A stretch of DNA of 64,000 nucleotides from Reinekea marinisedimentorum. Its GTDB lineage: Bacteria > Pseudomonadota > Gammaproteobacteria > Pseudomonadales > Natronospirillaceae. Location of the stretch: assembly GCF_004341165.1 (NCBI RefSeq), contig NZ_SLZR01000001.1, forward strand, positions 186,001 to 250,000, in the 5' to 3' direction. A program made the position numbers and the translations under genes. The notes beneath the pieces are model-generated. The model did no database searches and was not told the DNA's origin. It saw nothing but the letters and a program-made list of their open reading frames with translations. This document shows positions 35,474 through 45,886 of this stretch, piece after piece; positions within the stretch are counted from its first letter, which is position 1; every line of letters begins with the position of its first letter.

Positions 35474-35497
35474 TGATGCCCGTTTCATCGGGCATCT
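35474..35497 (+). terminator. leuA terminator, left copy of direct repeat
   Basis: Stem GATGCCCG (35475-35482) and CGGGCATC (35489-35496), loop TTTCAT. It is 29 bp after leuA and has lost its T tract: the structured repeat begins after the first T. A second copy with one loop difference lies at 35658-35681. Confidence 0.75.
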
Positions 35498-35657
35498 CAG
35501 ACTGCTGACAAAGCAATCGCAGTCTTCGAGACGATGAAAAGGTATCGCTTAAATGGACGTCGAAAACATGGATGTTTTCGTCGAGCGTATCAGGACGATA
35601 CTTGCAGCGGTCCATTTAAGCGATACCTTTTTGTCGGCGGGGTTTATCGATAACCAG
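35498..35657 (+). repeat. Terminator-flanked structured repeat, copy 1
   Basis: 160 bp between two 24-nt direct repeats of the leuA terminator. It starts CAGACTG and the conserved part ends GGCGGGGTTTATC. The first 151 nt align without gaps to copy 2 (reverse complement at 44622-44775) with 11 differences. A perfect 22-bp inverted repeat is at 35537-35558 and 35610-35631. The 51-nt head between its arms is identical in both copies and holds two hairpins (CGAAAACA/TGTTTTCG and GTATC/GATAC). No ORF inside. Probably a non-autonomous mobile or structured-RNA element. Confidence 0.85.
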
Positions 35658-35681
35658 TGATGCCCGTTTAATCGGGCATCT
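35658..35681 (+). terminator. leuA terminator, right copy of direct repeat
   Basis: Same stem GATGCCCG/CGGGCATC as at 35474-35497 with loop TTTAAT, followed by TTTGCCC. It matches the left copy at 23 of 24 positions, so one of them is a duplication produced with the repeat. Confidence 0.75.
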
Positions 35682-44597: not shown

Positions 44598-44621
44598 AGG
44601 AGCCATCCGGCTCCTTAGGTT
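44598..44621 (-). terminator. LysM-gene terminator, distal copy of direct repeat
   Basis: On the minus strand: AGGAGCC, loop GGAT, GGCTCCT followed by TTTTTG, an efficient-looking terminator. It is an exact 24-nt duplicate of 44776-44799 and keeps the T tract. Confidence 0.85.
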
Positions 44622-44775
44622 GTTGATAAACCCCGCCGACAAAAAAGTATCACTTAAATGGACCGCTGCAAGTATCGTCCTGATACGCTCGACGAAAACA
44701 TCCATGTTTTCGACGTCCATTTAAGTGATACTTTTTCACCGTCTCGAAGACTGTGGCAACTTTGTCATCAGTCTG
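44622..44775 (-). repeat. Terminator-flanked structured repeat, copy 2
   Basis: 154 bp between two exact 24-nt direct repeats of the LysM-gene terminator. On the minus strand it starts CAGACTG directly after the terminator stem and ends GGCGGGGTTTATCAAC. Its perfect 22-bp inverted repeat is at 44642-44663 and 44715-44736. Compared with copy 1, two positions of the stem changed in both arms (G:C to A:T), keeping the pairing. The 51-nt head is identical. Same orientation relative to the upstream gene as copy 1. No ORF inside. Confidence 0.85.
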
Positions 44776-44799
44776 AGGAGCCATCCGGCTCCTTAGGTT
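44776..44799 (-). terminator. LysM-gene terminator, proximal copy of direct repeat
   Basis: Stem AGGAGCC/GGCTCCT 13 bp after the LysM-gene stop. The T tract is replaced after the first T by the start of the structured repeat. Exact copy of 44598-44621. Confidence 0.75.
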
Positions 44800-44812: not shown

Positions 44813-45886
44813 TTAGAAGCCGGGGTTCACAATTGGGTCACCAACGCGCATTGGCACCTTGGCTTCAAGGATAATGGCGTAAGACGTTTTCTCGAAGGTG
44901 CGGAACACCATCGCTAAACCGCCCTCTTCGCTCGGCAACTGAATGGTTTCACCGGTAACCGGGTCAGAAACCTGATCGCCCGTGCGGTTGATACGGAATA
45001 CGTTACCCGGGGCGATCGATTCACGGCTGCCAACGTTCAGCAGAATGATGTCGAACTGGCCAATAAACTCAACGCCCTTGTTCACATCCAGAATCTGGCC
45101 GGTGATGTCTTCCGGTGGTTCGCTTGGGTAGAAGAAGGTTTCCAGCAGAGACTCATCAGATTTCAGCACGCGATAACCAATAGAGACCTGTTGCGTGGTC
45201 TTCTGCAGTCGCAGCGTTGCAATGTCGGATTCGAGGTCAACCATGCTTGCCGTGCCGATATCGATCGCCTCGTAACCCAGGAACTCCTCGGTCACCGGAT
45301 CGTTATATTTATCGCCCTTCTTGTAAATCTGATAAACGGTCAGGTCCGGGTCGAACTCGCCGCGGGCAAAGACTTTATCGCCGGCACCAAGGATTAATCG
45401 GCCTTCGCCACCGCTGATAATGTACGGCGCGGAATCCAGTTCTTCGGAATTCAGAATGCGGTTGCCGTGAATGAAGCCTTCAATGTGCTCACGCGAAATC
45501 GCCGGGATAGCCCCCAGAATTGGCGTTACCCGTGCGGTTGGGCGCAGTTTTACGAGGCCGTTGTCAGCCTGATCCGGAGTGATCTTCAAGGTGTTGGCGT
45601 TTTCGCCGCGGGCAATGACTGTCAGCTGTTGCTGACCATCGATCATCACCAGACCAATAATATCGCCCGGGAAAATCAGGTGCGGGTTTTCAATTTGTGG
45701 GTTGATGTGCCAGATGTCTTCCCACTTCCATGGGTCGGCAAGAAACATCTTTGAGATATCCCAAAGGGTATCTCCTTTAACCACAACATAACGTTCGGGG
45801 ACGTTGTCATTAATCTTGAGTTCATCGGCCATAGTCATACCAGTGATGACACAGCATGTGAATAACGCAGCGATGATTTTCCTCAT
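44813..45886 (-). CDS. LysM-domain secreted protein
   Basis: 357 residues, signal peptide about 1-20 (TMA-D). A LysM domain (about 32-80: YVVVKGDTLWDISKMFLADPWKWEDIWHINPQ) should bind peptidoglycan; then a long beta-rich part (about 95-357) with no known catalytic motif. The W-K-W-E-D-I-W type LysM followed by such a part is a gammaproteobacterial family usually next to dprA and def, as here; its job is unknown but likely in the cell envelope. Divergent from def across 296 bp. Confidence 0.88.
   Translation of the reverse strand: MRKIIAALFTCCVITGMTMADELKINDNVPERYVVVKGDTLWDISKMFLADPWKWEDIWHINPQIENPHLIFPGDIIGLVMIDGQQQLTVIARGENANTLKITPDQADNGLVKLRPTARVTPILGAIPAISREHIEGFIHGNRILNSEELDSAPYIISGGEGRLILGAGDKVFARGEFDPDLTVYQIYKKGDKYNDPVTEEFLGYEAIDIGTASMVDLESDIATLRLQKTTQQVSIGYRVLKSDESLLETFFYPSEPPEDITGQILDVNKGVEFIGQFDIILLNVGSRESIAPGNVFRINRTGDQVSDPVTGETIQLPSEEGGLAMVFRTFEKTSYAIILEAKVPMRVGDPIVNPGF

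Follow-up and report, generated by a model that had tools for sequence, protein, structure and literature searches.

A YPAL-family MITE of Reinekea between duplicated terminator hairpins and its likely mobilisation by an IS1182-family transposase

The stretch of Reinekea marinisedimentorum DNA analysed here (the window, 64,000 nt) contains two copies of one repeat, each enclosed by a pair of hairpins that belong to the site and not to the repeat, and the question is how the repeat came to lie there. One copy, 160 nt long, occupies positions 44616..44775 on the minus strand, downstream of an open frame at 44813..45886 (minus strand) that has orthologues in five of the six other genomes of the genus and that we take to be a LysM gene, the name given in the original prediction. 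Read on the minus strand from the 3' end of this gene, the order is the terminator hairpin AGGAGCC-GGAT-GGCTCCT (44776..44793), which is the presumed target, then the element, CAGACTGATGACAAAG...160 nt...CAACAACCTA, then the identical hairpin (44598..44615, minus strand) with a T-run after it, which we interpret as the target duplication. In plus-strand letters, both hairpins read AGGAGCCATCCGGCTCCT, an exact match over 18 nt. The element itself has the 5' end CAGACTGATGACAAAG and the 3' end GGGGTTTATCAACAACCTA.

The other copy in the window, also 160 nt long, lies on the plus strand at 35498..35657 and differs from the first by 15 substitutions and no gap. The predicted inverted pair was confirmed (165-nt arms, 91%), as was its 151-nt core with 11 substitutions and no gaps. 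This copy is flanked by another local hairpin of 24 nt, TGATGCCCGTTT(C/A)ATCGGGCATCT, at 35474..35497 on the left and, with one mismatch, at 35658..35681 on the right (both plus strand). The terminator copies at the LysM site had been described as exact over 24 nt. The letters are correct, but the true repeat is the 18-nt hairpin: of the extra six nucleotides, which read TAGGTT in plus-strand letters, one occurrence belongs to the end of the element itself, and we conclude that the occurrence on the opposite side is a chance match. The border was placed at the foot of the hairpin because the terminal repeats of related transposons place it there.

Hairpins flanking the copies

BLAST and an end-pattern search together gave 29 copies in the R. 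marinisedimentorum genome, a draft assembly of 62 contigs. BLAST yielded loci for 27 elements and a weak match to a short copy (L031), and the end-pattern search added a second short copy (L065); L028 was counted within the element of L027, and L029 and L030 within L001. Another 13 copies were found in Reinekea blandensis MED297, and none by BLAST in five other genomes of the genus, in one of which (G003) a covariance search detected one junction-type palindrome. Searching the exact core pattern, which misses variants, in the contigs of 84,980 species, a set that may omit the R. marinisedimentorum genome itself, returned 11 stretches, all from R. blandensis. The exact 5'-end pattern matched in three of 369 genomes of the class: in the own genome, and in two others where the matching sequence is unrelated. 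The core pattern gave no match in viral contigs, and the element was not found in plasmids and phages.

Flanks were compared in the 40 copies from both genomes that had a measurable 5' end. Two copies were dropped: L025, with an unrecognised 5' end, and L046, in which the 5' end had diverged and which has an identical hairpin on both sides. L023, for which the assigned 3' end is unreliable, is among the 40. Left and right flanks matched each other with a score of at least 10 in 32 of the 40 copies, compared to 22 of 1560 control pairs drawn from different copies, and the match is thus not due to chance. The other eight (L002, L007, L020, L023, L024, L026, L027 and L044) scored 5.0–9.2, and some of them are damaged or missing an end. 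A hairpin touched the element on the left in 36/40 copies (9.6% in shuffled flanks), on the right in 35/40 (24.5%) and on both sides in 31/40. The expectation of a hairpin before and after every copy therefore held for these 31, while the remainder lacked the pair.

Among the 32 flank-matching copies, the borders of the repeat fell within 3 nt of the hairpin borders at both ends in 27, and a hairpin ended within 3 nt of the element in 30. Repeat length and hairpin length were correlated at 0.82 in the 27 border-agreeing copies, which are a selected set, and at only 0.43 across all 32, because the hairpin finder had taken another or longer stem in four rows (L019, L022, L056 and L065). The lengths of the left and right hairpins were correlated at 0.40. 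The target duplication is approximately 15–31 nt long and coincides with the hairpin, the sequence of which varies from locus to locus. This comparison across copies bears out the original prediction that the flanks are duplicated target, local to each site and unrelated in sequence between loci. In most copies the flanks coincide with a hairpin at the end of a gene. The suggestion that the form of a terminator is recognised and not its sequence also fits; recognition of hairpin form is supported.

Hairpins on both sides are also a feature of integron cassette arrays, and the element could in principle carry an att-like hairpin and integrate at a matching site by site-specific recombination. 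The hairpins, however, match only their own partners, by the same counts as above, and the empty IncC plasmid site of a related transposon (see below) already has a hairpin. No fixed flank of the integron attC type, carried by the element, was found in the 40 copies: as had been argued against such recombination from the window, the flanks are local to each site and not common. We regard this explanation as extremely improbable.

Gene context was assigned by simple frame calling for the same 40 copies. Intervals between convergent genes held 26 of them and tandem intervals 14, while no copy lay between divergent genes, which is the distribution that targeting of terminators should produce. Half of the tandem copies were sense to the upstream gene and half antisense (7 and 7, or 6 antisense without the degraded L026, which has no hairpin), and the claim that the element is always sense to the upstream gene had to be abandoned. 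The split orientation fits a palindromic target. A-runs to the left of the hairpin (20/40) and T-runs to the right of it (15/40) were equally common.

Same-genus relatives have diverged too far for a letter-exact comparison of empty sites. Even so, all five of the same-genus LysM orthologues found have one hairpin near the stop codon and no element (genome G006 yielded no orthologue of the gene). The gene upstream of the 35498..35657 copy is followed by one hairpin in four relatives (L175, L177, L178 and L179), and no hairpin was obvious by eye in two others (L174 and L176). A letter-exact empty allele was obtained for an IS1182 transposon at the IncC plasmid site only. There, an 18-nt hairpin is present twice in the filled allele (L188) and once in the empty alleles, with flanks identical to those of L188; the left flank is present in 949 plasmid records, and the empty alleles come from the two of these that were read, L204 and L205.

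We considered the possibility that the paired hairpins were two terminators that preceded the insertion, or that they were made alike later. In L005, L012 and L129, a plasmid copy of the Yersinia element YPAL described below, the stems are indeed more alike than the loops. On the other hand, the exact empty IncC site and the five LysM orthologues have a single hairpin, and at many loci the two copies share loop sequence and orientation as well. Prior or homogenised pairs are thus a highly unlikely source of the flanks, and duplication of the target hairpin is the reading that we follow. (For L129 itself, searching turned up no empty allele.)

Relatives with and without a transposase

YPAL is a known MITE of Yersinia (PMC2229807). 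End-to-end global alignment of the element with the YPAL/RU-2 sequence printed in Table 1b of PMC2759123 gave a score of 98, compared to a mean of 44.7 and a maximum of 74 for 1000 shuffled sequences, and the element matched the terminal sequences and core of RU-2. The two have in common a length near 165 nt, the start CAGACTGNTGACAAA, a similar reversed end, a three-way-junction core with two short hairpins on a stem, a mostly intergenic location, and a variable target duplication at dyad symmetry, which in the Reinekea copies is observed. They differ in the stem and the 5' arm. They also differ in host, which is the genus of Reinekea blandensis (Oceanospirillales) here and Yersinia for YPAL, and in the duplication, which is the whole hairpin in most Reinekea copies, whereas section 11 of PMC2229807 gives YPAL target duplications that vary from 3 to 26 bp, at targets that span or adjoin dyad symmetry. 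The element is a YPAL-family MITE, and hence of a known kind, in a new host lineage.

RU-2 was present in 5 of 5426 E. coli genomes and in 17 plasmid records, from which the copy L129 was taken. This copy, in Enterobacterales plasmids, is flanked by a pair of hairpins that agree in the stem and differ in the loop, while a YPAL copy in a viral contig (L150) has exact hairpins on both sides. The original 2006 YPAL paper (De Gregorio) reportedly mentions an overlap with terminators in its abstract. One candidate for a long element, L172, was rejected, being a YPAL copy (approximately L172:338-1950) in which the tip region is broken by what is, from reading it, presumably an IS110-type gene.

Scanning viral contigs for the shared 5' end returned 38 stretches. 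Three of these, L148, L150 and L154, are short relatives between whole hairpins. Unlike L150, L148 and L154 have a core other than that of YPAL; at approximately L148:661-820 and L154:4382-4540, they represent another type of short element, which shares the ends and the whole-hairpin flanks but has the core GAAAATCAATTCATTGATTTTC. The L154 type had partial matches in 12 plasmid records and none in E. coli genomes. An end match in L158 was due to chance.

The viral contigs also contained two long, transposase-bearing elements between repeated hairpins, L170 and L162, the latter with a broken gene. NCBIfam places the protein of L170 in the IS1182 family with 494 bits, the cut-off being 270, and the protein has the Pfam domains DDE_Tnp_1_6 and DUF772. 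In viral contigs, the search for close relatives of it returned only L170 itself, and in plasmids 328 records matched at E ≤ 1e-60, 261 of them from Enterococcus. We assembled 18 IS1182-type loci (L162, L170 and L187–L202), 16 of them hand-chosen from plasmids across identity and species, in Providencia, Vibrio, Acinetobacter, Rhizobium, Brevibacillus, Sutcliffiella and Enterococcus plasmids. At 14 of the 18 (13 sites, as L201 and L202 are one site), the same hairpin was present at both ends, with one mismatch in L162. L189 has two unlike hairpins, and nothing recognisable was seen at L197. A single Providencia plasmid carries L187 and L198 in opposite orientations, and their flanking hairpins are exchanged crosswise, which is what recombination (inversion) between the two copies would leave. 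Genomes of the order added two more cases (L206 and L208), the only ones with both ends among 25 pattern-scanned IS1182 loci of the order, the rest being cut, partial or too distant.

These transposons share with the MITE terminal repeats that follow the pattern CAG(A/G)(C/T)TGNNGACAAA and the use of terminator-like hairpins as targets, the whole hairpin being duplicated at the 14 loci above; they differ in having a transposase gene and a length of 1.5–1.6 kb, whereas the MITE has no gene. Counted by eye, the 5' end of the MITE agrees with L170 and L188 in 15 of 16 letters, while its 3' end, TAGGTTGTTGATAAACCCC (reversed), agrees with L170 in only 14 of 19. The longer relative with the same ends and a transposase that had been proposed thus exists, with ends that are very similar.

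Taken with its YPAL kinship, these likenesses make it very probable that the repeat is a non-autonomous YPAL-family MITE, moved in trans by an IS1182-family transposase. Since the element folds back over a long stretch and its arms covary, a single-strand transposase of the HUH (Y1) or REP type, which moves palindromes such as the REP elements, might be considered. The complete transposons with similar ends, however, encode a DDE-type IS1182 transposase, and a target duplication is present here, while HUH (Y1) and REP-type enzymes are not known to produce one. Movement by such an enzyme is very unlikely.

The R. marinisedimentorum genome was also searched for an IS1182-type partner. The end-pattern search found no transposon with the MITE ends: matches to the 5' end with up to two mismatches were all known copies, short copies or unrelated sequence, and for the two 3'-end matches read outside the known copies (L066 and L067), the surrounding stretch showed neither a 5' end nor the core. 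One IS1182-family gene was found (L182; G000:C41, frame approximately 994-2565; 523 aa), which at 271.8 bits is barely above the cut-off of 270, and which has other ends and lacks the hairpin repeat. In R. blandensis, the IS1182 query had no match at E ≤ 0.001. As the same genome yielded no partner, it is the sequence of the ends and the behaviour towards the target that connect the MITE with IS1182, and from these we infer that the enzyme acting in this genome is of the IS1182 type. The mobiliser itself is probably either lost, unsequenced or present in other strains. Since a MITE can outlive its partner transposon, the missing transposon lowers the case for IS1182 membership and does not exclude it.

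A possible route of insertion

We suggest that the target would extrude as a cruciform of two stem-loops, and that the 3' ends of the element would be joined to the 5' foot of each stem-loop, leaving the strands of the hairpin as single-stranded gaps. Once these gaps were repaired, both sides of the element would have a complete hairpin, whatever its length; a palindromic target would permit either orientation; and the gene would be left with an intact hairpin directly behind it. It seems probable that IS1182-type transposases and YPAL-family MITEs have no fixed stagger, read the form of the hairpin and are joined at both of its feet, in which case the length of the duplication would be set by the shape of the target.

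Hairpin targeting is not new in kind, having been published for IS1272, a member of the IS1182 family (PMC4923244, PMC5678879), as have dyad-symmetry duplications for YPAL. IS1272/TnSha1 of staphylococci resemble the present elements in family, in their unrelated hairpin targets, several of them terminators, and in inserting in both orientations (PMC4923244, PMC5678879, in the parts used here). They differ in the fate of the target hairpin, which is not duplicated but gives way to the element or loses a part: the staphylococcal data in PMC5678879 show replacement and PMC4923244 describes partial deletion by IS1272, so the outcome at the target is not uniform in the IS1182 family. Duplication of the stem-loop does appear as one branch (3b-6b) of the model for IS1272 in the legend to Figure 13 of PMC5678879.

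Two other groups were compared. The IS1202 long-duplication group was considered for its target duplications of 16–28 bp and rejected because its ends do not fit, those of the better-known members beginning with 5'-TGT; in the parts of PMC10132070 used here, no target had been found for the group. The MITE ends differ from the ends of group IIC introns, elements that insert beside terminator hairpins and make no target duplication.

Our literature search found no statement placing YPAL in the IS1182 family, which is not proof, as the original 2006 paper lay outside that search. Within the literature covered, a MITE family with no named mobiliser is thus tied to a transposase family and, if the reading of shape is correct, YPAL repeats in Yersinia, orphans so far, would gain a mobilising enzyme family. 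Several dozen natural insertions, together with a single exact empty site, show DDE transposons that duplicate whole hairpins of unrelated sequence, and recognition of shape becomes directly testable. The intact hairpin left behind the gene would explain how such elements could spread there.

The inner palindrome and length variants

The inner palindrome of the LysM-site copy (44640..44736, minus strand; L001:1543-1639) consists of a long stem, the arms of which covary, and, at its top, a three-way junction from which two short hairpins branch. In the stem, 99.4% of cells were paired, and 66 double changes were counted compared to a mean of 21.6 in shuffles, none of 500 of which reached as high a number; the number of pair types was not above the shuffles (486 of 500). 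In a palindrome, such covariation could come from selection on folding or from sequence being copied from one arm to the other. When 244 genomes of the order were searched with a covariance model of the core, 17 of them, the own genome included, had palindromes of this kind. These order-wide palindromes (L072–L100) have the same kind of tip and mostly a long stem of their own in each copy, and no hairpin duplication was seen in 27 such loci.

The double changes and the recurrence of the three-way-junction core across the order would also suit a structured RNA gene (an sRNA or 3' UTR element) kept after terminators and not mobile. The target duplications, the presence or absence of the element between species and its transposon-type ends speak against this, and every Rfam family stayed below its cut-off in the stretches that were searched, the values being 22.9 of 97 bits for AaHKsRNA41 in the window and at most 31.3 of 70 for Ysr224 in relatives. 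An immobile RNA gene is therefore unlikely, while a structured-RNA role and a mobile element could both be partly true.

The MITE occurs in three length classes about 15 nt apart (159, 174 and 189 by the measure used), the differences being due to extensions that one or other copy has in the two tip hairpins. By eye across copies, the tip of the element at 44616..44775 seems open in one frame, with length variants 15 nt apart. Three short copies lack the inner palindrome: L027 (G000:C13:25754-25818), L031 (G000:C14:61573-61628) and L065 (G000:C12, near 73322). Of these, L031 retains its full hairpin flanks.
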